64,000 nucleotides of DNA, from positions 29,895,871 through 29,959,870 of the forward strand of contig NC_092676.1 in NCBI RefSeq assembly GCF_964355755.1, given 5' to 3'. The notes beneath the pieces were generated by a model. The model was not told the origin of the DNA. It searched no databases and was given only the letters and a program-made list of their open reading frames with translations. The DNA comes from Antedon mediterranea (Eukaryota > Echinodermata > Crinoidea > Comatulida > Antedonidae). Both the position numbers and the translations under genes were made by a program. Shown here piece after piece: positions 961 to 58,403 of the stretch (position 1 is the stretch's first letter; each line of letters opens with the position of its first letter).

Positions 961-3900
961 TCACGTACTGCTCTCTCCCGACGCCGTGCTTAATGATCGT
1001 CGTTGTCTTTGTAAATACATAGAATTAACCAAGGTTCGCGTCGACGTTCCGGTCGGTAAACGCAATCTGGTATCTATGGGTGCTGTATCGTCTACTAATG
1101 GCTTAACATATCGTATAGCATAAATCTTAATTACAAATATACAAATTAAAACAACCCAGCAATTTAATATAAGCGCACTGGCTATGTATATACATTTCGT
1201 AAAAAGTTCTTTTTCATCAGTTACAAAATACGGTGGAAGAAACGCCAGCAGTATGACGACTGTAGTGAAAGAACAGAAACTTAAAAATCTAGATTCGTAA
1301 TAGTTATCGGGAAGGCGACGAGCCTTAAACACAGACGCACAGCAAACAAGGATGAAGACGAAATTGTAGGCTAGACTGGTGATCACTTCGTTTATTTGGA
1401 TGTTACACGCAAGCTCGATTCTTGGTGAGTCTCCCAAGACTTTGCGAGGAAGTACGTCTGGTGGATACAACAGCAACCAAACACTGGATATTATAACCTG
1501 GAAATAAATATTACAAAATTTCAGAATTAGTTGGTTAGATCAGGGAGTTGTAATTACAACTCCCTGGGTAGATCATTAATTGAAGGTTTGCATGGCGAAA
1601 TCAATATGTTAATATAAAGTTTGCGGTACAGCCCTACATCTTGTTCTGCAAAGAACTGCTAAAGTTCCTCGACGTTTCGATTGTGCTCTAGAGCAACAGC
1701 GATCTACAGTACATCACCAGATCATTGAGTGACATTAATTATAACACGAAAGTGTAACTTCTTTTATTATTGAAATTTCAGGAAAAGGGTTCTTGTTTAT
1801 TAATATTTCTTATCCATGCAAAACATAAATAATTGGTTTAATACCTGTATAGAAACAACAATCAGTAAGATTCCAAGTTGTTTCGGTCGTTGGATTAGTT
1901 TTGGATTTTCTGTTGAATCTGTAGCAAATGCAACCGAAAATATTTTCTGAAGTCTAATACTCTTTAGAGCCATTGATGAATACATTAGGCAGCCTCCGAT
2001 GGCGGGTAGAAGCCTTGCCGCCGCACAAACAGTCTCACTGGGTTTAACAGCAAACGTTATTGTAGCTACCAACACTATTGTCTCACCAAATAAAATGAGA
2101 TAATTTAGAAGGGGCTCAGAAGTTTGAAGAATCTGCTCCTTTCGGTAGAAAATGAAGAATATGAGTACGATTAAAATGCCTACAAGTCCGATCGATGCCG
2201 TTATAAGAATCAGAGAACCAAGATGGCTTCCCCAACTGACATAAACTTCCTCCAGTACAAGACATTCCATATGCGTGTTGTCAGGACCAGTTGACCCGTT
2301 ACATTTCCAGCATTCCTTGTCATTATCAGGATCTACAATTGTGTCGTCAATACATGCTTTACATTCCCAACAACATCTCACTCTTTCGTAAATCAATACA
2401 GTTTGAAATCCGGCTGGACATGTCTCACTACATTGGGATTGTGGGATCGACCCGTTTATCGATGATTTCACCGACCAAGTAATGTCATCATTAAAATCAG
2501 AGAAGCCGTCTGTAGTAGTCCATGTTCCCACAGGGTAAGCGCGTAACTTCCCAACTACGGCATCACGTTGGAAATAACTCATCCTGTAACGCCCCTGGAT
2601 GTCTCCGTGTGAATCGAACTCTATGCGCCCGTTAACAAGACTGTCAAAAGATGTTCTTCGTAATTCTTCCAGCAAGATGTCACCTGGCACCTGTTGCATT
2701 ATTTCAACACATTTGTTGTTGGTCGGTTTAGTATCGTGACAAAGTGAGCTTTGTATGCTGTGCAGTGCGTAAGCGAACGCGTATACGCTATCCATCACTA
2801 AGGTATCGTGTGAATCAGTGTCGTCCTCATCAATGCATGACGTCATTGAGCAATTTTTTTCGTAATACTCAGAAAACCAAGGATTGTTTGACGTTAATGG
2901 AGTAGTTGAGATAAACGATAAATCGAAAGCCCGTAATCGTTCTGAATACGGTACCATCGTGAACGATCCTTCTGCTGCAGCTTCGTGTTCTACAATGCCT
3001 TTAACTCCAGCATTCCCAATGGCGTCACTTGCGATCCATATAAAAACACCAGTGGCATTGAGACGCTCTACAGCATCAAATACAGCGTTGGCCGTTTCTA
3101 AGTCTAAGAACAATACCACCGCCACTGCACCTCTGTCTAAGAGTATTTGTACTATCTGCTTCATGTTACTATCAACTGATACAGCTTCTTCGACTGCTAA
3201 ACATATTTGATCTGCTGATTGTTTCTGGAACTCGCTGTAGCCATTGCGCCCGTAACTGTCATCAGAGTACAGAATAGAGACGTATGTCCAGTTGAAGTGG
3301 AGAACCAGATCAATCATGGCAGTCACCTACGAAAAATCAAATATTAAGGCAAAATTAAAACAAACACTAACGAGTGTAGAATGTTTCCATTTATAAAGAT
3401 TTGTTTCAACTAAGACGCAGCGCAAGGACGACGTAAGCGCAAGGATGACGTAAGCGCAAGGATGACGTAAGCGCAAGGCACAAGCACAATTAATTAAAGT
3501 GTACAAAATATTGAAAGAAGAGCAAATAAAATGTGTAATATGTAAAGTATAATTATACGCGCTAAAATCGACTTACCTGGAATCTATCAGGCGGTACAGT
3601 CCTAAGAAAATACTCATACTTAATCTTGTCGCTAAGTTCATCACTGGTTGACAGGTAGCTAATCTGAGGAACGTTGAATAGACCCAAAGTGGTGGCTGCC
3701 TGAATACTGCTACTACTCCTCTGAGCACCAATCACACCAGAAATATTACGGAATTGTGTACAATCTGTTGGTGGTGGAGCTATACAACTCCCAACACATG
3801 TCTCTTGTTCGTTTACATGTTCCTGATCTAGCACAAAGTTAACACTTTCCCCCAAAGCTACCGCATCATAGTAACATGTATCTCTGATATCAAATCCTAG

Positions 3901-4167
3901 TTTTATTCCAGGTAACATTTTTAAGTCTTTGTTTATTTTATCAACAGCGTACACTAATGCCTCGACTCGTTTGATGTATGGAACGGCTAAAATGCCTTCA
4001 CATTCACCACTCGTCTCGTTGTATTCATGAACTGGCATCAACGCCCCAAGAATCAAGTCACCGTCTACAAAATATCTATCTGTTGAAGATGATCTTGCCA
4101 AGCAGAAGAGAAGCACCAAGTTGAAAACGTTCATCAACATATATTTAGGCATGGAAGATTGAAACAT
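961..4167 (-). CDS. Class C GPCR, metabotropic glutamate receptor-like
   Basis: Three exons read on the minus strand, 4167-3577, 3326-1845 and 1497-961, join in phase 0 to give about 869 residues, the usual mGluR length. In order: signal peptide (about 1-28), a Venus-flytrap ligand domain (about 30-495), a nine-cysteine NCD3G linker (about 499-555) and seven membrane segments from about 566. Residues equivalent to the glutamate-binding set of mGluR1 are visible: R67 (KRVEA), T174 (YLSTS), D194 (VPPD), Y225 (DSYG) and D301 (WIASD). The position matching K409 appears to be Q411. Exon 3 carries FKARRLPDN and the TM6-TM7 block. In this family ligand binding in the extracellular lobes drives G-protein signalling at the plasma membrane. 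The ligand here is uncertain because of the K-to-Q change. Alternative in-frame starts lie at residues 7 and 10. Confidence 0.9.
3420..3480. repeat. 17-bp tandem repeat with CRE-like words
   Basis: About 3.5 units of GCGCAAGGATGACGTAA lie in the first intron of the class C receptor. Each unit contains TGACGTAA, which resembles an ATF/CREB half-palindrome, so the array is a cluster of possible sites. Function is not shown. Confidence 0.75.
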
Positions 4168-5489
4168 GGCGGATACGTTTAATTACCAAATGTGAAGTCT
4201 ATGTTGTATTTTTAAGTAACTGATCTGGAGGAGACAGCATAATTAATGAAAATAGTTATCTTGTTGACACAATCATCGATAGTCTATTATTAGGTCAGTT
4301 AATTAATAATTAAACATTCGACATTCTGTTGAGCATATGACAAATTCTCATCAGCTGTCAATCCAGTCCTCATACCATTGAGTTCCTGTATACAATAACA
4401 AAGTATAGTATATAAATGAATAAGTCGAATATTTTATATATTTTTATGGCCGACTTCTGTCGTAAACGACAATGTCAATTAGTCTTACATTCATTTGAAT
4501 GATGACTAAAAAGCCAGGACTGTTTAAATCAGTTTGGCTGGTCCCAACATTGACCAAGGGCTTCTCTCGTCTCCAGTTCCCACATTAACCAGGAGAGGCA
4601 TAGGCCAATGCGTCTGAGGCAGATACTAGTCGAATAACGGTTTAAATATTACAAAGCCTCGCAAACAGTATATTAAGCCTACTGGTGTGTCCCAACTTAC
4701 AAACTTTAAACCCCTTTAAACAATTTGGAACAAACCTGTCTACTAAAACTATAATAGAGGCATCAAACCTTTACAGTTGCAACCGTTTTACCTTTTCATT
4801 TAGGCCGTTGGAAATTGATTTAAAGTGAAGATACTGATAGACCTAGCTAGACAAGAACGAACTTTGTTTTGCGATTGGTGTTATATGGATGTGGGCATAT
4901 AGAATGTTAACACTCAAAGTCCAGTAGATATATTGAGTGAGTAAACTTTGCTTTATTCTATATTACCTAAGTCTATTTAAATAATCTAAATCAGACTGAT
5001 AACAAATTGATAACGTTTGTAATTACTTAATGATCATTATCGGTAGATTCGGAAACATTTGATGACAGATTAACCCTTAACCCATTGAATAACAAAATAA
5101 ATAATTAAATAAAATATAGTTATTGAATAATAGTTTTTCAAAATTGTTATGTCTAATAGTTTACAACTACGACGCTCTGTACAATTTGAAACCGAAGTCT
5201 CCTATGTAATATTTATCTATATAAATGTATGAAATATATTTTCCTTGTTTATCTTCAAAGAATGAACATTTTGAAAGGAAAGGGAAAAGGTTTGTCCATG
5301 GAGGTATAACATTTATTTGATTACACGGCCTCTGTTATGGTGCCGTTCGAAATAACAGTGACAAAGATTTCGTGGTTGGTTGAACATTATGGGTATGTCT
5401 GTTTTGTTATTCAAGGTTTTTGGACATTGAAAACTTAATTCATTAGATTTTCAGATTAGTACTGTAGTAGACACTGGTGAGAAACGAAC
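4168..5489. other. Intergenic region between divergent receptor and reductase A genes
   Basis: The class C receptor (minus) and SDR gene A (plus) are divergent, so this 1.3 kb holds both promoters. I see no further gene, no clear TATA box at a fixed distance, and no transposon with readable ends. A loose hairpin-like stretch with CCATGGAGG and CCTCTGTTATGG is at about 5298-5341. Confidence 0.55.
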
Positions 5490-25197: not shown

Positions 25198-27359
25198 TCA
25201 TATCGGTTTAGGAGGCCTAGGTGGTCTGGCAGGTCCATAAACTGGATTGCTTATTATGTAAATTTGTCTTCCTGCTGCATCTAAAAGAAAACATCGATAA
25301 CATTGTGTTTGGTTGGTCGGTCGGTCGGTAAACACTAACTTGAGCACGCGACTGCAGCCATGTATATGGCCTTGTTTTATTTTATTTTAAAAACCCAACC
25401 AACAGCCACCCAGAATTCGATATTATATGTACTTAACGTGCATATTAAGAATTCTCTTGGATCCCAACGTAGGGTAAAAAATCTGACTAAGTTATTTTAA
25501 TACTGTTTTTGTAAATGCATTCAAGTTTTTTTTAAAAGAAGCAATGTTGTTTACTCACCAGAAGAATACAGGTCAACTGGTCGGATCCTTCCATCTTTTC
25601 CATATTCGAATAGACAGTTTTTGTTTATTGCGTAACCTACACCTTTATGTCGATAATCTGGATCCGCCGATGTCAAACCAGTGGTTGGGGGATGGAACGC
25701 CTGAGGAGTAGTGCAGTGTGGGCTTAGTTTGGGACCAATGTGAGAATAATTGATTGGAGAACTTGTTGAACTCTGAGCTGTGGCCGAACTTGAAAGGACA
25801 GTTTTTCGTTTCTTTGTGCTTAGATCATGGGCAGCTGTTGTGCTTAGATCATGGGCACCTGTCGTGCTTAGATCAAGTGGTTCCTCGTCATTTGATGGTC
25901 GTTTTTGTCCGTGCTGCTGTGAGCTGCTGAAATTGTAATAATGCATTGGATATGGTGTTCTGGTCATTACGGGTATCGGTAGCGGTTGTGTAGTAGGCCT
26001 ACTTCCGGCGGGCATCATGGGAACATGAGAGGGATACGACGTGTGGGTGTAAATATTATGTCTGCTTACTGGAAGAGGCGTCTTCGGTTGTCTACAAAAC
26101 CTTTGTACAATGTGTTGGTTGGCAAAGATTGGAGGATACAGTGAAGATTGCGGATGAGGTACGTTTCCAACTACTTGGTTTTTCCGATTTGCCAAAGGTG
26201 TCGGCAGGGGAATTATGTCTGGTGTATTATAGTGGGAGTACGCAACTGGTTTGTAAATATCTTGTACAGCTTGTGACAGTGCGAAAGGAGATGGTAGATG
26301 GCTCACTGGACTACCATTGTTTCCAAACTCTTGGCTTAGGCCTACTGGAATTGGTATCTGCTGTATTGGCGAATCATCAACGCTTTGAGGAATTGTGTCG
26401 GATGACGTCACTCTGTGGTTGAACTGTACTTGGTAAGTATCTTGACTAACGTCTCCAGATTGTCTGTTTATACATTGGTTTACTGGAGTTGTCATTTCTG
26501 GGTTGACAGTTTTGCCGCCAACAGCACTGGACAAAGCGACAGGAAACGGTTTACAGGGAGAGTCCTCGACGATTTGGAGTGGACTCTCTGGGCTGGCCAC
26601 TCTTTGTGGTGAATGTTGTAATGGCGACTCTGCAGTGCGATCTTCTGTATCATTTTGGAAGGACGCGACTGTACATGGTGTCTGTCCTCTCCTTACGGAA
26701 TAATTACTATCACCACCATCACTCACTGCAAGATCTCTGTTATTGTATTCCAGTTTCTTTTGGAAAGCCATCAGCTGCTGAGGAAATGAACTATCAACAG
26801 TTTCAATAACTTCTCGTAAATATATCTGATAGCGTATACGTAATTCAATGGTGTTCTTCTCGGTATTGTCAAAATGTTTACCATCGAAATTCAGAACCCA
26901 AAAGTTATCCTTTCCATGTGGTTTATCTGGCCGACGTAGGATCTTTTTGAAACAATCATTGCAGCTCAAGTTATGCCGAACACTGTTCTTCCAACCGGTG
27001 TATTCACCTCGAAGAAAATAGAAAGCGTTCGACATAAAATCAATGATATCTTTAAAGGTCATCATGATTTTTGGGTTTAAGTCAATTGACAAAATTATCA
27101 TCTCGATGTATGAAAATGGAGAGTTGAAATATCGCATTGTGTCAGACTTTCGCTGTTTTTTGTTTAATGTTAACGGTATGGCCGGTGACATGTATGTATC
27201 GGTTGGGTCAGAGGTCATGTCATCCGGTTCTAGTTTGACATAGACGTTGTCCGAGCTGCTATTCTCACATTTTTCCAATTTAACAGATTGAAGAGGTTGA
27301 TCGCAGACAGTTGAATCCGGAGAGGTTACCGCGCTTAATTCTTTCCTTACGCCAGACAT
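25198..27359 (-). CDS. Divergent forkhead (Fox) transcription factor
   Basis: Exon 1 is 27359-25559 and exon 2 is 25280-25198; the junction keeps frame and gives 627 residues. The forkhead domain is at about 79-170, with SPFSYIEMI, GWKNSVRHNLSCNDCF (recognition helix) and RRPDKPHGKDNFW. Several positions depart from ordinary Fox proteins, so I cannot place it in a subfamily. Two VKLE motifs (about 26-29 and 41-44) fit the SUMO consensus. PLDLS at 494-498 fits the CtBP co-repressor motif and is followed by two 8-residue repeats (AHDLSTT type) and a basic KKRK. The rest is low-complexity, Pro/Ser/Gln rich. A role as a nuclear DNA-binding repressor is inferred from these motifs. A transposon with 9-bp target duplications lies 263 bp upstream of the start codon. 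Confidence 0.9.
25816..25877. repeat. 24-bp in-frame coding repeat in the Fox gene
   Basis: GTGCTTAGATCATGGGCA occurs twice, 24 bp apart, and a third partial copy follows. On the coding strand it encodes the repeated DLSTT/AHDLST stretch next to the PLDLS motif. Confidence 0.85.
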
Positions 27360-29024
27360 GTTTGCTCCACCAATAGATAGTATTGCTTGCTTATTTTATT
27401 TTTATCTGAAAATGGTAAGACAGTTATAAGATCTTATGTTAAAAACAGGTAAGTTAAAAACCATCAGTAGTGCATCAACCGTAACCTCCCCAACCCCTAA
27501 TATCCACCAACACGGTGCCATATCAGTTTTATATTACGATATCAAACAAGTGGGGCTCAAAACTACTGTTTTTAACACGTGAACAACAAATTAAAAGAAG
27601 CGAGGACAATTGTATAATTATTCGCCGTGGCTAAAGATACGGTACCGTATTCTAACTTCTGTTTACTAAAGGTACGGTAAAATTGCATTACGTCATAGCC
27701 AACCAATGGGGTGCTGGTACGTGTGTGACGTCATAGTATAAGGACTTTGGATTTTTTTTCATATCGTGTCTCTGTTGTTTTGTGTAGAGAATTCCTATCG
27801 GCGGCGCCAGGCTGCGTGGGTGTGTGTGCGCTGCAGATGAGGGTTTTATTTTTATTCCAAATGGCCTATTTATGCCTATATTTTTTATTAAACTTTGTTT
27901 ACAATGGTGACCATAAACAACAAGCAAATGCAGACAATAAAGGGGCCCTCAAATACTATGATTTTGACAGTAGCCCCAGGCTAACGAGTCACAGAAATCA
28001 GCGCACACATGCAGCTGGCCCCAGCCTGGCATCGCTTTCCCTACACAAACAAACTCATATACTGTAATGAGGTTATAGTAGGCGTAGTAGGCCTAGCCTA
28101 GGCCTCTTTTGAAACGGTTTTCTGTATTCTAGAATTAAAATCAACATGTTTTGGCTTTTCAATAATAATAACAGACGTAGGCTACATTTAGTTTTTGTCA
28201 CACACGACGGCGATAATAGCGATAAATAAAGCATAAAGAAAAAATGCGGTTGATCACTGTTTTCGCGATATGAAAAAAATCCACAAAGTCCTTATACGAT
28301 GACGTCACACACGTCCCAGCACCCCATTGGCTGGTTATGACGTAATGCAATTTTACCGTACCTTTAGTAAACAGAAGTTAGAATACGGTACCGTATCTTT
28401 AGCCACGGCGATAATTATTTTATGCGACTATTTTAATGACGGCATCCATACCTGGGCAAAGTACAATTTGTTACTAAAGCAGTGACTTGCAGCTCAATTA
28501 ATTGTGCGATATATGCCTAATAATTGCAACAGTAAAAGCTAGCACTAGATATGGTAACACTTGTGTGTGTATATATATATATATTTGACACAGTACAATA
28601 TAACAAATTAATTGCTGCTACAAGTAATTACCTATTAAGCCTACCTATATACGGAACATCAAACAGATCGGTTTGCTGGCTATCGTAATAATGACTGTTT
28701 ACGTTTGGTATCAATGGTTTAAAAGCAGACGACAGATATGCTGATTTGAATACATGTGATTTAGTCTAGTATGGTATGCTAATTAGCATATTTAGTTTAT
28801 GTTAACCAACATAATGAAACGTACAGATACCAATCGGGAATTTAAAGTGACGTAGTAATGAATTAAGTTATTTACCGTACTTACTGTTATAATCTTATTT
28901 ATTTAAATCTAAATTTAGTGTACTTAAGTCAATGTGAATAATAATATCAAAATTGTAGCATTATATTTGCGTATGCCTATAATTATATTATTAGTAATTA
29001 ATATTGTAAATATTTTAATTAATT
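27360..29024. other. Upstream region of the Fox gene
   Basis: Contains the Fox promoter, the inverted-repeat transposon at 27623-28410 and the 3' flank of the oxidoreductase fusion gene. A GTGTGTGTATATATATATAT microsatellite is at about 28563-28586. No other coding exon is supported. Confidence 0.6.
27623..28410. mobile_element. Inverted-repeat element with 9-bp TSD (Mutator-like MITE)
   Basis: Terminal inverted repeats of about 135 bp begin CGCCGTGGCTAAAGATACGG and end with the reverse complement. The flanks are the 9-bp direct repeat ATAATTATT (27614-27622 and 28411-28419). Long TIRs plus a 9-bp duplication fit the Mutator superfamily. The 788-bp element has no transposase, so it is non-autonomous. 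The TIRs carry TGACGTCA-type words (TGACGTCATAG, GATGACGTCACAC) and lie in the Fox promoter region. Confidence 0.85.
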
Positions 29025-32000
29025 CTAAAGTTCAATATGTCTTTTCATGTCAAAATACTGATTGTTGTTTTCGAATTGAATGCCAACATTCTCGGCAAAT
29101 TTCTTATCACTGTCACTGAAGTCATCAGGTCGACCAGCCGCATCGCCGACATAAACAGCGTTTTCTTTGTCGATTGTCTTGAATTGGTTTAAAGTACAGC
29201 TATAATAATCCCACATGCCCGTATCAGGTTTTCTATACTTGTTCTTAGTCGTGGCTGCTAACACGAACATTGGTACATCAAGGTCTGACGTGATCTTTTC
29301 CACTTTAGCCATCCACTCATCTTTATCTTGAGCACCAGATTCGATGCCGTTCTGGTTGCTCATAATCACATTATTAATGTTGTGATAGAGGTTGTCTTGT
29401 ATGATTGATTTGACATTTGGAGATGTGAAAACCCAGTCGTGTTCATTTTGAGGATATGGTTTACCACTTTTTGTCTTGATAATAGTGCCATCCAGGTCGA
29501 ATGAAGCCACCTGTTCATTTGAGTGAACTCCTTTTGTTTCATAATACAACAGTCCATCTGAACGTTCAATCCACCATCCTGATTGGTCACTGAGAGGCGG
29601 GAATTGTCTAGCAGTTCGGATACCAGACATCTGATAAACATCTTCAACCAAGTACGAAGCTACGCCATACCATTCGTCAGCAGAATTTGAAATCATCGAA
29701 CCAGTTCTAAAGAAGGCGGAAGAAACACCCGACTCTCTGGAGACAACTTTTTTTGTTGAGATGTAGTCGGTTACTGGCAAATTAAGTTCTGGTTCTTTAT
29801 AGATTAGTTCTCTTGCTGTGTCGTCAACGTAATTTAGAATAGAAACAAACTCAGGTTGACAGTTCAAAGTGAATCGGTTAGTTGAGCCAGGTTGCCTGCC
29901 GTTATCGCCGTTCCATTTACCGACCTTACTCCACAAGTCGTCTGGTGAAGCTTGTTTAAAGGACTGGCACCACACCATGTATACATACGGTGACGGTTCA
30001 TGTTTAGGTGTAGGTTCATTTGATGGAAGAGTTGCTTCTTTTCTGTTGAAAGAAGGATAGTCTTGGATACCACAGCCGTCAACAATTAAACCAAGTGTCG
30101 ATTTAGCTGCACTGTCGGCAATTTCACGTTCATCGAGGGCTTCACTGCAAATGAGAGAAAGTTTGATTATAATCGCTGATGTACCCTTTCCTGTCGGTAG
30201 CCAAATTACTTCAACCGTAGCCTTCATACACTTTGTGACAGACAACGCCAGTTCTTTTATAGCATCTTTAGGGGACATTGGTATGTTCTCATTAACCGAG
30301 ATTGATAATTCATTTCTTACTAGTAAATTTACGTGCTTAAGATGTTGGTAAATAAGCATGTGAGTAAGTTTCTCTGACATTGCGTAGAGCGTCGCCGCTG
30401 GGTTACCGTCGGTCTGAGTTGCAAATGCAGACGCGTCACACACCCTCAGGTTGGTAACGCCTCTTACTTGAAGAAACTCGTCTAAACACTCCGGCATTTT
30501 GCATGTTCCTACTGGATGCAAGGCTGAAACAAGCATACCTCTCATCCAAGCGTTTAGTTCGTCATCGGTGTCTACATCGAGCCCCGGTGCCACCTCATCC
30601 AACACCAAATCACGTAAACTTTTATGAACATTTTCCCCAAAAAACATGTTTCGAAGTATTCGAATTTGATCTCGAACTAACCGAGATACCTTTTCAAATG
30701 CGGGCGTTGTGTCGTCATTGAGAGTGTAGTTCCAGCCATACTCGAGACTAGGTTTGTCAAAGATGTTTGGTGTAGTAGCATTGAGTGAACCTCGATACTC
30801 CGGCCATTGGTCAATTATACGAATCGTACCTTCGTTTGAACCATCGTCGTTGTCGTCATTAACCGCCTGTGGAAATTCCCCCTCGTATAGATATTCTGTT
30901 TGCTCCGAATGAGAAGAGTCAGAGGTACATAGTGGGCCAACTTCGTCAAAAAGCTTCGAGTTGCCCATCACATACAGTTGTACGTCACTCATTTCCTCTG
31001 GTACACGAGTATTATTCGATCTGTAGTGGATAATCCAAGAAAACGGTCCATTAATGCTATCAAGATCCGCTGTTTTATAGATTTCTCCATCGATATTAAT
31101 TTCTGGTGCTTGAAAGTCGTTTGAATCGGATCTTAGTTTAAGGACATATGGTACCGAAATATGATCCCATAGATGTTGGCCTACATGTTCGTTGTCGGCA
31201 ACCTCTTCCACTCCAATTCTTCTTAGGAGATCCCTGGGCCCTACACCACTTACTTGCAATAAGTGTGGTGTATCAAACGAACCACCACTCACAATCACCT
31301 CTTTACTAGCACGTCGGGTACGGATTTTGTTCGATACTACGTCCAAGTATGCGACGCCAATTGCTTTACCGTTTTCAAACATAATTTTCGTTACAGTAGC
31401 AGATGTGTGGAGGTAGGGTTTATTTTGTTGATCCTTATAATAACCAGTGTAGCTGCTTCCACGACCAGTCTTCGAGGCCCGATTTTGTCTAGCTTCATCT
31501 GTAGGGACTTTGTTGTCCAGACGTAATTTGTACTGTTGGAAAACACTGCAGCTGACTCTGTTGTTCTCGGGACCATTGTAGTCTGCTGCGTATCCTTTCC
31601 ATGGTTTTGTTGTATCCTCACACAAGTATTGCATTTCAAACGGGAATTTTCTAAATGCTTCTTTGATTTGACTGTTGAGTTGCATTGGACCACCTTTACC
31701 ATGCCATTGTTCACACATGTCGCCAGTTATACCCGTTACTTCTTCTGAATCATAGTGACAGTAATGATCTTCTATCTTCTTGTAGTACTTCGAAAATTGG
31801 TCGTGTTTCCAGCCGTCTGGCCATAAGTTCAAAACCGCTGGACTTGCACGTCTAGCAATAGCGCCATATACGCGGGATGTTCCACCGCGTCCTCGAAATC
31901 GAGGGATATAGATGTGTCGGGCGTCTTTTTTCTTGTTGTAAGGCTTAGCATTCGGGTACGACTGCACGTTTGTACCTAAAGCTGGTTGTGTTAGCCAGAA

Positions 32001-32498
32001 TGGATCGTGAGGTGAGGTGAATTTGTAAGAATTGGTATACCATTCATCCATTCCACTTTCTTCTGGTCCTCGTTCAAAGACGCATATCTTCCAGTGAGGT
32101 ATTTCTGCCAACCGACCAGCTACAGCTAGACCTGCTGTGCCAGCACCGACAATTATAAAATCACACGAATCGTTGTCACTGAGATGCTCATCACCATAAC
32201 TATGGGTAGAAAACAACAAAATAATTGTAATTTGAATGTAATGCAATCAAGCTTTAATTCCAAGGAATGTTCATAAGCGCATTCAAATAAGTGTTTGAAT
32301 TAATCGAAAGTGGTGAGTGAATGTTCGACAAAGAGAAACTTTAAAAAGCGGATAGCAATGATTTGTTGAACATGTCGAGAAACAATTCAGGGGTTATATG
32401 GACATGGAAAATAATAAAGTACATTAATTACTGCATTCAACTTACGTAATTGCTATAAACACCAAGCCGATGAGGATGGGATGATACTTCCACATCAT
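29025..32498 (-). CDS. GMC FAD oxidoreductase fused to PNK3P 3'-phosphatase domain
   Basis: Exon 1 (32498-32446) encodes a signal peptide, MMWKYHPILIGLVFIAIT; exon 2 (32199-29025) is one open frame of 3175 bp. Together they give 1075 residues. Residues about 30-635 are a GMC oxidoreductase: FAD motif VGAGTAGL, signature VSGGSFDTPHLLQVSGVGP, and the catalytic pair H579 (HPVGTCKM) and N617 (GNPAAT). Residues about 636-915 are unassigned. Residues about 915-1070 match the HAD-type polynucleotide kinase 3'-phosphatase (PNK3P): FDLDGTIIKTKSGK, MSNQNG, YRKPDTGMWD and VGDAAGRP are all kept. The kinase half is absent. The chain ends HIEL, a KDEL-like ER-retention form known from carboxylesterases. 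GMC enzymes oxidise alcohols or sugars with FAD; PNK3P removes 3' phosphates from nucleic acid ends. What the fusion does is unknown. An upstream in-frame TTG in exon 2 is not the start. Confidence 0.9.
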
Positions 32499-50268: not shown

Positions 50269-53200
50269 CTATTTGGTCGTTCCAATACCAAGTTGACTTT
50301 TTAATTGTTCGAAGCGTTCCTTGATAAAATGGTAAAATTCATATTCTAATGACATCTGCTGCATGAGTACAGCGTGCACCTCTGGAGACGGAGACTCTTT
50401 GTAATTTGTCATCGTTGATGAACGATTACGTGAATATGTGTTACCTAAATTTGAAAATGGATCATTGTTATAAATGTGTATTCAAAATATATACTTAAAG
50501 ATATGTCTCCCTGGAAAGTTTTTTCTTTTTTTCAAATTTTTTTTTAATATGCTCTATAATAGTTGTTCACTTTCACCAAAAATTGGATGAAAAAAAAGTT
50601 CCTGTATTTTCCTGAAAAACTGTAATTTAAAGCAAAAAATGGTCAAATTGGCTGCCAGCCAACAGGTTCTTAATGATTCATTTTAATACATTGTTTTCCT
50701 TTTTTTCTACGGAGATGATTAACTTTATTAAAACTACAAAATAACCTATTCAAAATCTGATTTTATTAATCGTCATTTTTCATGTTTTGTGGGACAATAC
50801 ACCTTTATAGTGAAACAAAGTTCTTACCTGGAGCCCTCATGTAATCAACAGCACCTGCAAAAAAACGAGGCAGCATTTTTTCTAAGACTGCAAATGTGTT
50901 TTCTAATTCATCTAGAATTCCCACAACTATAAAGTCACGTTCAACATTTTTCTTGGCAATTTCTAGGGGTGTTCTGTCTTGAAATCTTAATTTAAAAAAA
51001 AAATACATTCAGATGTTTTAAAATGGTACATTATACAAACTGTAAATAGAACACACTATGTCATTGGCAGTAGCAAATATACTGTACCCACTCCAGGGCA
51101 CAAACTCTTTCTCTTATGATACTAAATTTACTATATATATATATATGTTCATTTATATATTTTATTGGTCCTTTTTCTTTCCTTCTTTTGTTATTTCTCA
51201 TTTTTCGTATTTGTATCGTTCCCAGTTTTTAAATGTTGAGGGCCTCATGCATAACAGCCTCGGCTGTTTTGAGTCACCCTCATTAAACGAAGTTTAACAA
51301 AAATAAAAATTTGTGAAATATTCTTAAATATGTGTAATTTATATGAAGGTATTATTTTATTTAACACATTACCTGCATTGTGGACTTTGACCACAGAAAA
51401 ATGGTATTATATATTGAAGCTTGTTACGAGAACATTCGAATTTCTTTCTCAGAACACATTCATTTATAGTCTGAAAACAAGATAAAAATCATTTCATCTT
51501 ACAGTGTGATTAGGCACTTAAAACTATTTCTATAACTAAAGTTTAGAGGGTTTTAATAGCGATCAAAATTAAATACAGTTTGAACAGGGAGATTTAATTT
51601 AATTTATGAATTATCAAAATACTAAAGTATTCAATATAAAGCATAGTATAAATTATTTATTTCAATACATTGTACAATCCCTTCCCTGTACTAAAGCTCT
51701 GTCCACACTATCAAACGAAATATGATGTGCCCATATATGGACATGATGTTCCCATATCACTACCATATTTTTTTCTAGTTTGATAGTGTAGATAGATCTG
51801 TAGTGTACACCTTGCATTCTTTACTGTCTTTATGACAAAAAGCAATGACAAGGTACATAATGGCCACCCCACTGTTTACATTCTGAATGTAGCATTAAAA
51901 TGCAAGTACAGCAACAAGCAATTGTTTACATTCTGAATGTAGCATTAAAATGCAAGTACAGCAACAAGCAATTGTTTACATTCTGAATGTAGCATTAAAA
52001 TGCAAGTACAGCAACAAGCAATTGTTTACATTCTGAATGTAGCATTAAAATGCAAGTACAGCAACAAGCAATTGTTTACATTCTGAATGTAGCATTAAAA
52101 TGCAAGTACAGCAACAAGCAATTGTTTACATTCTGAATGTAGCATTAAAATGCAAGTACAGCAACAAGCAATTGTTTACATTCTGAATGTAGCATTAAAA
52201 TGCAAGTACAGCAACAAGCAATTGTTTACATTCTGAATGTAGCATTAAAATGCAAGTACAGCAACAAGCAATTGTTTACATTCTGAATGTAGCATTAAAA
52301 TGCAAGTACAGCAACAAGCAATTGTTTACGCCGTTTGTTTCATTACCTGGTATTTTTCTTCTTCTGTACCCTTAAATGGACGGGTACTCTTATCGTTCTT
52401 GCCGTCACCAAATCGCCTAAAGTAATATTGTGATGTAAATCTTTCAATAGGGTCACGAACTATGTTGATATATTTCACATATGAAGAGCTGAATCTATCG
52501 AAAAAAAGGGTTAAGAAAATTTAAATAAAATGTATTTGGATCTAGCGCCATAAGCAGATTCAGATTTGAATCAAATAACATTCAAACTTCTGTATCTTCC
52601 ATTTGATATATTCCAATTTGTTTAACAAAACAGCATCATCTTTTATTCCCATCAAAAGGAACAAATGAAGTGAATGCAGCTTCAGCAAATTTTAAAAACA
52701 CAAATTTCATTTACTTAGTTTACATTAAGTATTATTAATTGGCATTGGAAGAATACTTACTTGGTAAAATCAATGTAATGCAAATGTCGCTGAAATAAGA
52801 ATGGTGGGTCTACCTTCAAAAGAACACTCACAAGCAGATTCTAAAAATAAATAAACAATTTCATTTTTGTCGGATGCCAGTGTGTATTATAATTTAACTT
52901 GTGGAAAAGTTTCATCGGATTTTAATAAAATATAAAAAGGGTTCAGCAACTCTTTGTTTCATTTTAATACCAATTTTGTTACCATTATCTAACAGGTAGA
53001 CACTGAGCTTGCCTTGCCAAGATAGTAAAAGTCCTGTGATCTTATGTCTGGTCGCAACAAATACCAACAGTACTGTACATAATCTCTGCGGTGCACGGTG
53101 GCTGTTAAGGGGCTTGGCACTGATATCGCAGTCACATAAAGTTTGATAGTGTGGACAACAGGCGCGGATTTAGGCGGGGGCTAAACAGGCTTCAGAATAC

Positions 53201-56200
53201 AAACCTATTTAGCGCCCCCTAATGTCTAACGCTGGATCTGCCCCTGGACAAGGCTTCAGAATACAAACCTATTTAGCGCCCCCTAATGTCTAACGCTGGA
53301 TCTGTCCCTGGACAAGGCTTCAGAATACAAACCTATTTAGCCCCCCTAATCTCTAACGCTGGATCTTCCCCTGGACAAGGCTTCAGAATACAAACCTATT
53401 TAGCCCCCCTAATCTCTAACGCTGGATCTGCCCCTGGACAAGGCTTCCGAATACAAACCTTCTTTTCCTCTGATGTACGGGTTTGGTTATAAATAACCGA
53501 GTTGATCATGTTGTATTTGTTAACCTTGGCTAAATGTTTGAAAACGTCCAACACTGACCGACTTCCACATTTACCAACACGATTAAAAATAATACGTTGA
53601 GCCTGAAAGGTGATAAAATATTAAGGAATATGTTACAGTAAGTGTAGTGATGTTACATTACTTAATTCACTCAAACTTAGCAACTTTTGGTATTAATTAT
53701 AGATAGTATAGAATCCAGTATAACCACAATGTAAGTAGATAACTTAGTTTTCTATCTTGTTAATGATTTTACTTTTTGATTTAATAGAGTTGTTTTGATA
53801 TTTGTGTTTCTGTTAATGTTTTATCTTTGTACGAGACAAGCACAATTATTTCCACTTGTTCTGTGCACGAAATAAATTGTAGAAATATCTGGTAGAACAT
53901 TTGTTTTGTTGTCACAAGCACTTTACGTATAACCCTTTCAAATCGTCTAGCAAAACATCTCAGGAGTTTACACACCATGGCCGCAACACTCTGGTATAAT
54001 TATGCTAGATAGCATAATATTGACCCATCTGCCATCTAGCATTTATGCTAGACATAATTTTAGAAAATCTGGCATAATTTTGTGCTGCCACCTAGCATAA
54101 TTTAATTTCAAATGCTGGCCACACTGATTACACCTGCATTTTGTATGGGGTGCACTCAGGTGTAAGTAAACTCCAGCGTTTCCCTAGGCATGTGACAGGG
54201 TATTTATTAGTTATAACATTATTTTATTCTAACTTTTTAAAAGTAAAACCAATAATTGAAAACAGATAACAATATCATAACAGCATCCTCACCGTTGTAT
54301 CTTCCCAGTTGCCATATAAGGGTAATTTTTCAACTCCTTCCTTAGTTTCGTTCCAGTCGTATAACCATTTCTTTTTTCCAACAATTACTTTATCTGGTTT
54401 ACTTAGTATAGTGTTTACTGGTGGTTCAACAACCTTTTTATTTTCATTTACAACGTTTCCAACTACTTCTGTTGACTTGTTTTGTGAAACTTTGTTAGTT
54501 TCTTCAAAAACATTCTTTCCTTCATCTTGAAAACCCATAATTTTTCGCTCTGAAAAAAAAATAATCTTCATTCGTTGAAAAATAAAATTCAGTAAATAGA
54601 GTACATTATTAGTAGATGGAGTGGAGTTGTAGCTTGGTGGTTATGATGCTTGGTTACCATTTCAAGGTCCTGGGTTCAAGTCCTGTCATGTGTCAGGATT
54701 TTTTATAATGACAAATTAAAACTCTACTTCCAAAGACTACGAAAGCCCATTAATGCCATTTTAAGTATATGTTTTTCGAACGTAATCCGTTATAACGAAT
54801 TAGTAATTCGTTTGAACGGATTAATAATTCGTTTGAACGGATTAATAATCTGTTAATTACTAATTTGTTTAAACGGATTACTAATTTGTTCAAACGGATT
54901 ACTAATCCGTTCAAACGAATTACTAATTTGTTTAAACGGATTACTAATTCGTTCAAACGAATTACTAATTTGTTTAAACGGATTACTAATTCGTTCAAAC
55001 GAATTACTAATTTGTTTAAACGGATTAGTAATCCGTTCAAACGAATTACTAATTCATTCAAACGAATTAGTAATCCGTTTAAACGAATTAATAATTTGTT
55101 TAAACAAATTAATAATTTGTTTAAACGGATTATTAATCTGTTTGAACAAATTAGTAATTCGTTTGAACGAATTAGTAATCCGTTTAAACAAATTATTAAT
55201 TTGTTTAAACAAATTAATAATTTGTTCAAACGGATTACTAATTCGTTAGAACGAATTAGTAATTCGTTTGAACAAATTAGTAATCCGTTTAAACAAATTA
55301 CTAATCCGTTTGTAACGGATTCCTAATTCGTTTTAACAGATTATTAATCTGTTTAAACAAATTAGTAATTCGTTTGAACAGATTAGTAATCCGTTCAAAC
55401 GAATTACAACATATTCTTTAAATGGCACTTGTTGTATATGTTGCAATTGGTTTGAACGGATTACTAATTCGTTTGAACAGATTACTAATCCGTTCAAACG
55501 AATTACTAATTCGTTCAAACAGATTAGTAATCCGTTTAAACAAATTATTAATTTGTTTAAACAAATTATTAATTTGTTTAAACGGATTACTAATTCGTTT
55601 GAACGAATTAGTAATCCGTTTAAACAAATTAGTAATCCGTTTAAACAAATTAGTAATCCGTTTAAACAAATTAGTAATTCGTTTGAACGAATTAGTAATT
55701 CGTTTGAACAAATTAGTAATCCGTTTAAACAAATTAGTAATTCGTTGGAACGGATTAGTAATCCGTTTAAACGAATTACAACATATACTTTAAATGGCAC
55801 TTGTTGTATATGTTGCAATTCGTTTGAACGGATTACTAATTCGTTTGAACAGATTATTAATCCGTTCAAACGAATTACTAATTCGTTATAACGGATTACG
55901 TTCGAAAAACATATACTTAAAATGGCATTAATGGGCTTTCGTAAAAGACTTGTTATAAGACTTTGTTTATGTAGAGCATCTTATGTATATGTTTGTCTTG
56001 TGAACGGGATTGCTGCCTTTAAGGATAGTGAATGAATTCGCTTATGGTTATCCTTGGCAATTTGCCAAAATATTCTTTACAATTGTCACCTCTACCATAC
56101 AAATTATTTTTTGCTTTGTCGTCTTCATGCTTCACTACACGCAACGAACCATCTATTTGATTGTTTGACCGACCCGGGTATACATTATTACATAACACAG

Positions 56201-56484: not shown

Positions 56485-57482
56485 TTTAACTTAAAAGTCC
56501 GTCCATATAAATGTTAGATAATACTGGCCGACATGGAACTAGTTTTACAGTTTTATAAATGTTGACACGTCATAATATACAGCACAGGAAGACATGACAC
56601 CCTTCTAAGCTGGTGCTCAAGCCGTGATTTTAAGTACGCTCAAGTCTGGCCCTCGCTCGCTCGCTCACCAACAAAAGACTTCACAATTCCAACTTGTAAC
56701 AGGTTGTGACTACAACGTCTTTCTACATATCGCCCTCTATAGTTTTGGACAAATCAAAGGCTGGAAGAAGCAGACGAACCTATTTAAATCACAGTTAATT
56801 AATCATAATTTAATCATGCAATTTTGTTTTGAATGATAACATATATTGAAGTATATATTTTTTAAACCAACATTTTAATTGTTATTGTATGAAAAAATAT
56901 ATGAAGAAAACCAATTTATCATGATATCAACAATATACATGATGACATTTTAACCAATTAATCATTGTTCTTTCAAAAATCTAAGTAATTACTTTGCAGT
57001 AATGAGAACGATTAGACTGCCCCTGGGGTTAAAATAAGCGTTATTTTGTCGAGATTTATAATTACTAATAATTACGTGGAGATGTCAACAAAGAGTTGAG
57101 TTGATTGACTAAAGGATGCTGGTGAATGATATTCACTTTTATCTACGAAATCACTAAACAGAAGGTGTGTGGTGTTGACAGTCTTATCGGTAAAACGATT
57201 TATTCGATTTTACAAGTCAACCATTTGGATTCTTGTCTTTAAAAAAGTAAATCCTATCCGGCGTGTTTTTCTCCATCTGAAAGATCGTCCATCAACTTGT
57301 CGTACCAAACAGTTCTTACGACGTCACAATGCACAACGCTTCATCGATTTTACAAGTCAACTGTTTGAATTTTTGTGTTTAAAAAAGTAAATCGTATCCG
57401 GCGTGGTTTTCTCCATCTGCAAGGAGGACCGTCCATCAACTTTTTTTGTGGTACCATATTAATTTAATCTAACGGTTAGATT
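56485..57482. other. Spacer between UST and the class A GPCR
   Basis: Divergent promoters of UST (minus) and the GPCR (plus). A direct repeat of about 100 bp lies at 57204-57300 and 57344-57453, both copies starting TCGATTTTACAAGTCAAC and ending CGTCCATCAACTT. The second copy ends about 30 bp before the GPCR start codon. No other gene is seen. Confidence 0.6.
57204..57453. repeat. ~100-bp direct repeat upstream of the GPCR
   Basis: Two copies 140 bp apart share AAAAAAGTAAATC, TATCCGGCGTG and TTTTCTCCATCTG. They lie in the presumed GPCR promoter or 5' UTR. Confidence 0.85.
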
Positions 57483-58403
57483 ATGAATGATTCAGTAGAA
57501 GAACAAGTAGACACAACGATGTTACTAGCGTCTAGATGGATTATATCCATAACTGGAATCGTCGCAAATTCTTTGGTCATCTTTGTATTTGTCTACAATA
57601 AATCATTTAAGAAGTCGCTTTCGTTAAAATTACTTCTACATCAAACTGTGATTGATTTGATTGGATGTGTAATGTTTTTAATATTCTACAACTATGTTAT
57701 TTATGCCGATAATGACAAGCCAACATTATTATGCAAATTTCGTTCATTGTTTTGGTACATGACTGTGGCGTCTTCGTACAACTTGGTAGTCTTGACCGTC
57801 GAACGGTATATTGCTGTTATTCATCCGTTATTCTACCGAATGAAGTCATCAAGCGGGAATAAACTAATCATATACACTCTTCCTTTACTTATTCCACATA
57901 TACCCGGTTTTCTGGCCGGAATTCGTATATTTGACATAATGGAGTATGATAACGGCGTATGCTATCTGAAAGATGAACACCCTATTTTTACAGGCGTTTA
58001 TCAGCTTATCTTCAATGCACTTTTTCCTATTAGCGTTATGTCCTATTGTTACGGCTGTATTCTGTGGAAGTTAAGCCAACGGTCTATAGTAGGAAGTTCT
58101 ACTCCTCAACAGCCGGGCGCGCCAGGTTCCAACCTTAATGCGCATGCGCCGTGTTTTAAAACAAACCTGATATTAACACTCATGCAGTCGTCTGTCGTTT
58201 TTCTGGTAACAATCACGCCGAATTGTGTCTTTATTTTTGTGTATTGTCTGTGCACGTGTTTCGAGTATAACTCTGTTTTGCATAGAGTAACAGAATTATT
58301 AATAGCGTCTAATTTAACCATTAATCCGTTTATATATTGTATAACTTTAAAAGAATTTCAGCGCGGTATTTTGAAAATTAGAAATGCCGTCGTGAATTTG
58401 TAG
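57483..58403 (+). CDS. Class A (rhodopsin-like) GPCR, orphan
   Basis: A single exon of 306 residues; an in-frame TAG lies two codons before the ATG, so the start is well bounded. Seven hydrophobic segments are visible. TM1 has GIVANSLVI, TM2 has the conserved Asp (HQTVIDLIG), TM3 starts after a Cys (LLCKF) and ends in ERYIAVIHP (an ERY form of DRY), and TM7 has NLTINPFIYC (NPxxY). A Cys for the TM3 disulphide is in loop 2 (GVCYL). NDS near the N-terminus is a glycosylation sequon. TM6 has TPN instead of the usual CWxP. The C-tail is short, with no clear palmitoylation Cys. Such single-exon receptors are numerous in echinoderms and hemichordates; a peptide or amine ligand is possible but not assignable. 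Confidence 0.92.
   Translation: MNDSVEEQVDTTMLLASRWIISITGIVANSLVIFVFVYNKSFKKSLSLKLLLHQTVIDLIGCVMFLIFYNYVIYADNDKPTLLCKFRSLFWYMTVASSYNLVVLTVERYIAVIHPLFYRMKSSSGNKLIIYTLPLLIPHIPGFLAGIRIFDIMEYDNGVCYLKDEHPIFTGVYQLIFNALFPISVMSYCYGCILWKLSQRSIVGSSTPQQPGAPGSNLNAHAPCFKTNLILTLMQSSVVFLVTITPNCVFIFVYCLCTCFEYNSVLHRVTELLIASNLTINPFIYCITLKEFQRGILKIRNAVVNL

Follow-up and report, generated by a model that had tools for sequence, protein, structure and literature searches.

A GMC oxidoreductase fused to a PNK3P phosphatase, with apparent endoplasmic reticulum signals, in the crinoid Antedon mediterranea and other eukaryotes

A two-exon gene for an oxidoreductase and a phosphatase

The stretch analyzed here (the window) comprises 64,000 nucleotides of the crinoid Antedon mediterranea, positions 29,895,871 to 29,959,870 of NC_092676.1, and sits on contig C7 of the assembly of this species. 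Its minus strand carries a two-exon gene (positions 29025–32498 of the window) coding for a protein of 1075 amino acids in which a GMC oxidoreductase is fused to a PNK3P phosphatase. Exon 1 (32446–32498) supplies 17 codons and 2 bases, encodes a hydrophobic, signal-peptide-like leader (MMWKYHPILIGLVFIAI..), and is followed directly by a GTAAGT donor. The sole intron of the coding sequence (32200–32445, minus strand) has GT..AG ends. Exon 2 (29025–32199; 3175 bp), which is preceded by an AG acceptor, contains no internal stops and closes with a stop codon, and the stop-to-stop frame at this place (29025–32246) is open over 1073 codons. The joined reading is identical in length and sequence to a public "uncharacterized protein" of A. 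mediterranea (P0002), and a protein search of the assembly returned one full match, the present gene. An earlier inspection of the DNA alone (the sequence-only reading) had given the place of the gene and the exon length correctly while leaving the strand unstated, and had held that one uninterrupted 3175-bp exon covers both enzymes, so that the gene model is not mis-joined. Exon 2 is indeed open throughout, and the same layout recurs in 12 further proteins. An artifact of gene modeling or assembly that merged two genes has next to no probability; it is at odds with the single open exon, is already refuted by the identical layout in other species, and was dropped. The fusion is one gene encoding one conserved chain with its active-site residues present.

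The GMC part (30378–32162, minus strand) matches the Pfam families GMC_oxred_N (E 6e-20; 72.4 bits against a gathering threshold of 23) and GMC_oxred_C (E 2e-18; 67.8 bits against 24.6), as well as solved structures that include glucose oxidase and pyranose dehydrogenase. His579 and Asn617, which we take to be the active-site pair of GMC oxidoreductases, are invariant in all 13 fusions described below. The PNK3P HAD phosphatase domain (29052–29513, minus strand) matches PF08645 over the whole profile (positions 1–161 of 161; E 5e-47; 160 bits against a gathering threshold of 22) and the PNKP phosphatase/kinase structure 3zvl (E 4e-27). HAD motif 1, FDLDGT, with the nucleophile Asp, lies at 29484–29501; this motif and SNQ, YRKP, and VGDAAGRP all read as they had been quoted before, and all of the HAD catalytic residues are present. 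Kinase and FHA families, likewise reported as absent from the letters alone, do not occur among the 12 Pfam matches of the protein, and the whole-PNKP model of NCBIfam (TIGR01663) fails with 135 bits against 503. The chain ends in HIEL (29028–29039, minus strand), a tetrapeptide of the KDEL type associated with retention in the endoplasmic reticulum (ER).

The roughly 280 residues between the two enzymes appear to be more than a plain spacer and to hold a helix-grip domain, which the sequence-only reading had missed. This domain, D2 (29625–29987, minus strand), was modeled by AlphaFold2 (AF2) as a helix-grip fold with a predicted local distance difference test score (pLDDT) of 86.2, which is a prediction rather than a solved structure, and its structure matches (Foldseek, VIA) include PYL receptors and norcoclaurine synthase. 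Both of these bind small organic ligands. An SRPBCC/START-like helix-grip fold is strongly indicated for D2 by the model and its matches. In profile comparison, D2 also matches P0148 and the domain at the C terminus of P0156, two relatives taken up below. The other middle domain, D1 (30093–30341, minus strand), has a predicted strand-helix-strand-strand-helix order; the rows of its fold search barely cover it, and its profile finds good matches in neither the Diplonema protein P0148 nor P0156. The AF2 model of the full-length chain is poor (mean pLDDT of 45.8). A match of the linker to PF24533 (20.5 bits against a cutoff of 27) was below the threshold and was set aside.

Distribution and history of the fusion family

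Searching with the C-terminal 434 residues brought up 19 proteins. In 13 of them (P0002–P0014, that of Antedon included), GMC and PNK3P share one chain. Over these residues the other 12 fusions are 50–74% identical to the query, after which identity falls to 35–38% for proteins of the PNKP type. The 13 fusions align through the middle region; the identity of the 12 to the Antedon protein is 62–80% in the GMC part, 30–66% in D1, 49–77% in D2, and 56–77% in PNK3P. Their hosts include the crinoids Antedon and Anneissia, the brittle star Amphiura, the mussel Mytilus, and the soft coral Dendronephthya. A search with the GMC part, in which only the 7999 candidates sharing the most words were scored and the 120 best of 192 matches were listed, also retrieved P0148, a protein of the protist Diplonema papillatum. 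It shows the same succession of a GMC part (44% identity), a D2 match, and PNK3P, and a D1 match is absent. The layout is reordered in P0156 and P0158, where PNK3P directly follows GMC and a Polyketide_cyc2 domain (PF10604) comes next; a D2-like domain ends P0156. The matches listed also include kin with the GMC part only (P0142–P0147 and P0150–P0155). Among the 120 best of 229 matches to the linker plus PNK3P, the linker is covered only by P0021, P0022, and P0023 (100, 88, and 62% of the query), which resemble fragments of fusions of this kind, and the other rows cover 34–49% of the query. The linker was also considered in combination with other partners, and no such case occurs among the matches listed in that search.

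The sequence-only reading had proposed a search by domain architecture across phyla. The homology searches brought up the GMC and PNK3P fusion in 12 further proteins plus Diplonema; the Antedon protein is not a lone curiosity but has related fusions from crinoid, brittle star, mussel, soft coral, and protist hosts. Named sea urchins, starfish, sea cucumbers, and stony corals yielded no fusion of the full layout among the matches listed in the three homology searches, which did not search genomes directly. Two scans for sources outside the eukaryotes, both weak in that each used two short peptide patterns, gave no confirmed case: a scan of genome contigs with the linker alignment for a prokaryotic source (23 pattern matches, 0 confirmed) and a scan of viral contigs with alignment A1 (13 pattern matches, 0 confirmed). 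Literature searches for GMC oxidoreductase together with PNK3P found no paper on such an architecture, and those combining PNK3P, fusion, and oxidoreductase or SRPBCC, GMC oxidoreductase, and fusion found nothing. No relevant item was recognized among the matches listed for marine hosts with GMC oxidoreductase, and Diplonema papillatum with GMC oxidoreductase turned up only work on fungal peroxidases. The novelty lies in the architecture, in its conservation from echinoderms to a mollusc, a cnidarian, and a protist, and in the probable compartment; all of the assigned domains are of known kinds.

In a tree of 70 of the 142 PNK3P domains, the 13 fusions formed one clade (support of 100/100) outside the 29-row group that holds all 24 named animal PNKPs, and Diplonema and the reordered pair were placed away from this clade. 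Constraining the fusions together was not rejected by the approximately unbiased (AU) test, with p-AU values of 0.58 for the 13 plus Diplonema (the constrained tree being 5.5 log units better), 0.34 for the 13 plus the reordered pair, and 0.49 for all 16. A quick GMC tree was built from 43 hand-chosen rows, with support from the Shimodaira-Hasegawa-like approximate likelihood ratio test (SH-aLRT) only; P0011, P0149, and P0159 were excluded, and P0141, whose gene call ends within D2, was labeled as fused. The family formed one clade of 29 of the 43 rows (SH-aLRT of 100). The 14 outgroup rows, which comprised a choline-dehydrogenase-like protein of Antedon and proteins of insects, fungi, tunicates, and bacteria, stood outside it. 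The labels fused, unfused, reordered, and outgroup need 4 changes on this tree, the minimum possible being 3, and some of the unfused rows could be truncated gene calls. Because D2 is common to the fusions, Diplonema, and P0156, the comparison favors one origin of the trio of GMC, D2, and PNK3P, followed by loss and reordering. Its presence in Diplonema as well means that the trio may predate animals or may have passed between eukaryotes via gene transfer.

Probable compartment and phosphatase charge

The signal peptide was judged by hydropathy only. The leader is hydrophobic in all 18 family rows with at least 22 residues before the flavin adenine dinucleotide (FAD) motif, 14 of the 32 rows beginning too late; for comparison, 39 of 91 other GMC proteins have a leader of such length, which is hydrophobic in 21 of the 39. 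KDEL-type C termini end 10 of the 13 fusions (HIEL, HSEL, RQEL, HIEL, HSEL, HNEL, HAEL, HTEL, HDDL, and KVEL), and ER-type tails are also present in 6 of the 12 GMC-only kin (KAEL, KVEL, RDEL, KTEL, KSEL, and KEEL). The pattern [KRHQ]x[DE]L fits 17 of 35 family rows, fragments counted, versus 4 of 214 others, and those 4 are true KDEL or RDEL ends of other GMC proteins. The consulted part of one paper describes HIEL of human CES1, the tetrapeptide that also ends the Antedon protein, and HTEL of CES2 as ER-retention tails (PMC2266714). The chain also has 18 Cys columns across the family, which fits a secretory protein, and N-glycan sequons, one of them common to 11 of the 13 fusions. An ER-luminal location is strongly indicated by these signals. 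As a separate observation, P0189, P0194, P0204, and P0216 are other GMC oxidoreductases ending in KDEL or RDEL; GMC enzymes may have acquired ER retention on more than one occasion.

Across the 19 family rows, Asp921, Asn966, and Lys1008 are kept in all, Asp919 in 18, and Asp1037 in 16; P0022 lacks the nucleophile Asp, and P0012, P0156, and P0158 lack Asp1037. The three Asp residues are kept together in 12 of the 13 fusions. The domain differs in net charge from that of PNKP. Over shared columns the net charge is −9 in Antedon, with a family median of −4, versus +2 in 29 short-loop and +3 in 90 long-loop PNKP domains; over whole domains the medians are −5, +2, and +6, respectively (the comparison set comprised 122 domains, 3 of which were left unclassed by loop). 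The outlier in charge is P0012 (+5). This fusion, in which PNK3P is positively charged, reads GNAAG where others have GDAAG, and its phosphatase is possibly decaying. A basic residue at human R224 is found in 1 of 19 family rows versus 75 of 122 PNKP-type domains, and at human K226 in 3 of 19 versus 78 of 122. Human numbering was set via the TNQ motif of the mammalian PNKP P0118 with T217, N218, and Q219, and the part of the source consulted lists R224 and K226 as predicted, not measured, DNA contacts (PMC7746193). Judged by sequence, the Antedon domain lacks a basic nucleic-acid-binding surface, with its charge of −9 and both R224 and K226 replaced. The short loop after GDAAG, shared with 29 of 120 other domains with a readable loop, is without the Lys/Arg run of animal PNKPs.

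Two other PNKP-type loci lie in the same assembly, one at C8:27741008–27745499 (38–70% identical to fish PNKP) and one at C6:6453120–6455282 (30–48%), the latter possibly a diverged paralogue; a choline-dehydrogenase-like frame lies on contig C11. A substrate other than DNA is strongly indicated by the composition of the domain and the targeting signals. The name DNA 3′-phosphatase, under which the domain had first been entered, survives as a profile assignment, but the secretory and ER-retention signals speak against a role in the repair of nuclear DNA and so against the name as a statement of function. The phosphatase has also reversed its charge.

Proposed function and comparison with known systems

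We propose that the protein is an ER-luminal multidomain enzyme in which a repurposed phosphatase acts with the oxidase to dephosphorylate and oxidize a hydrophobic phospho-alcohol, and we give this reading a probability of about 0.5. The signal peptide would lead the chain into the secretory pathway, and the KDEL-type tail would return it to the ER. There D2 would cradle a hydrophobic ligand; PNK3P, taken out of nucleic acid repair, would hydrolyze the phosphate monoester of the bound ligand, and the GMC flavodomain would oxidize an alcohol group of this ligand to a carbonyl, the simplest case being the newly freed hydroxyl. We infer the hydrophobic character of the ligand, its sharing by both sites, and the order of phosphatase before oxidase; the sharing is suggested by the fusion itself and by the helix-grip domain between the sites. 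The sequence-only reading had come close in suggesting either that the phosphatase had been repurposed or that the enzyme couples oxidation to the removal of phosphate. A wider picture, which we hold as tentative, is that of an undescribed, patchily distributed eukaryotic family in which a DNA-repair-type phosphatase was relocated to the ER lumen and fused via a ligand-cradling domain to a flavin oxidase. A single chain would then channel a phospho-alcohol to the aldehyde, perhaps in the service of marine metabolites of terpenoid, steroid, or polyketide-like character.

Several observations weigh against the proposed phospho-alcohol enzyme. The existence of GMC kin without a phosphatase means that the oxidase does not need one. 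No SRPBCC model for the animal D2 appears among the 20 Pfam families found over 17 members of set A2. The ER tail is lacking in 3 of the 13 fusions (P0005–P0007), in 6 of the 12 GMC-only kin, and in both Diplonema P0148 and P0156. A strict KDEL-type pattern excludes HIEL and fits only 4 of 35 family rows, and the consulted part of a second paper mentions none of HIEL, HTEL, HNEL, KTEL, and KVEL. The PNK3P domain has fewer Cys residues in the family than elsewhere (means of 1.3 and 2.1). In addition, the Arg equivalent to human R259 (position 1007) is kept in 17 of 19 rows, which indicates an unchanged phosphate pocket, and the NCBIfam DNA 3′-phosphatase model TIGR01664 is passed (157 bits against a cutoff of 108).

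The last two points, together with the full PNK3P profile match, the match to 3zvl, and the retained catalytic residues, would suit an enzyme that is still a nucleic acid 3′-phosphatase on DNA or RNA in an unusual place, for example on extracellular DNA, with an unrelated GMC activity. We consider this quite unlikely, given the negative net charge, the loss of R224 and K226, the short loop without a Lys/Arg run, the secretory and ER-retention signals, and the separate PNKP-type loci in the same genome. A better candidate, though still a doubtful one, is an ER-luminal enzyme on phosphorylated sugars or glycans of secretory proteins, in which the helix-grip domain would be structural or protein binding and would not hold a lipid. 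The glucose oxidase and pyranose dehydrogenase among the solved GMC relatives agree with it, as do the N-glycan sequons and the many conserved Cys residues, but a helix-grip domain placed between two catalytic domains better suits a small hydrophobic ligand; of the proteins that D2 matches in fold, the PYL receptors and norcoclaurine synthase bind small organic ligands. It is also conceivable, if improbable, that the oxidase is the enzyme that matters and that the phosphatase, with little activity of its own, is retained as a passenger or as a scaffold that serves folding or regulation. The GMC-only kin, the missing Asp1037 in P0156, P0158, and P0012, the missing nucleophile in P0022, and the positive charge of P0012 point that way, against which stand the PNK3P identity of 56–77% across the 12 other fusions and the three Asp residues kept in 12 of 13. 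A connection with biomineralization, which came to mind in view of the calcified bodies of the named animal hosts, was dropped.

PNK3P is usually read as a mark of nucleic acid repair, and the NCBIfam model names the domain of the fusion a DNA 3′-phosphatase. With its catalytic residues kept, its apparent site in the ER, its charge reversed, and a flavin oxidase and a ligand-cradling domain next to it, the phosphatase of this family offers an instance, open to testing, of the recruitment of a repair-type enzyme into metabolism. The family is also a concrete candidate for a two-step reaction, so far unrecognized, of crinoids, brittle stars, mussels, and soft corals.

The neighboring genes in the window gave no functional hint. 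On the minus strand lie pieces of a class C G protein-coupled receptor (GPCR) gene (1803–4182; ANF_receptor, NCD3G, and 7tm_3) in two large open frames and a forkhead-domain open frame of 614 codons (25554–27395), and a single open frame of 307 codons on the plus strand (57480–58403) encodes a GPCR of the rhodopsin type. A tandem array at 51873–52329 consists of 9.1 copies of a 50-bp unit with a 100% match, so that it is very young or homogenized. A 21-bp tandem array with a near-palindromic unit (GTAATTCGTTTAAACGAATTA) at 54782–55899 overlaps a repetitive minus-strand open frame (55333–55980).

Among known systems, PNKP shares the PNK3P domain (PF08645) over its whole length and the same HAD motifs, whereas the fusions have no FHA or kinase part, carry secretory and ER signals, are negatively charged with R224 and K226 replaced, and fall outside the tree group of the 24 named animal PNKPs. 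The GMC oxidoreductases, such as choline dehydrogenase, insect glucose dehydrogenase, and ecdysone oxidase, share the FAD-binding and C-terminal GMC domains and, presumably in the same role, the His and Asn, but the fusions form their own clade and have the additional C-terminal SRPBCC-like and phosphatase domains. SRPBCC/START-like proteins, including PYL receptors, Bet v 1, and polyketide cyclase-like proteins, resemble the predicted fold of D2, and P0156 and P0158 carry PF10604; the animal D2 differs in having no Pfam SRPBCC match and in being embedded in an enzyme chain. An analogue in the way of working is juvenile hormone synthesis in Aedes, in which the compartment and the oxidase differ from those of the fusion. 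In that pathway, as described in the consulted part of the source, a HAD phosphatase makes farnesol from farnesyl diphosphate, and the freed alcohol is then oxidized, but separate proteins serve the separate steps and the HAD enzyme is of the NagD type (PMC3734299).
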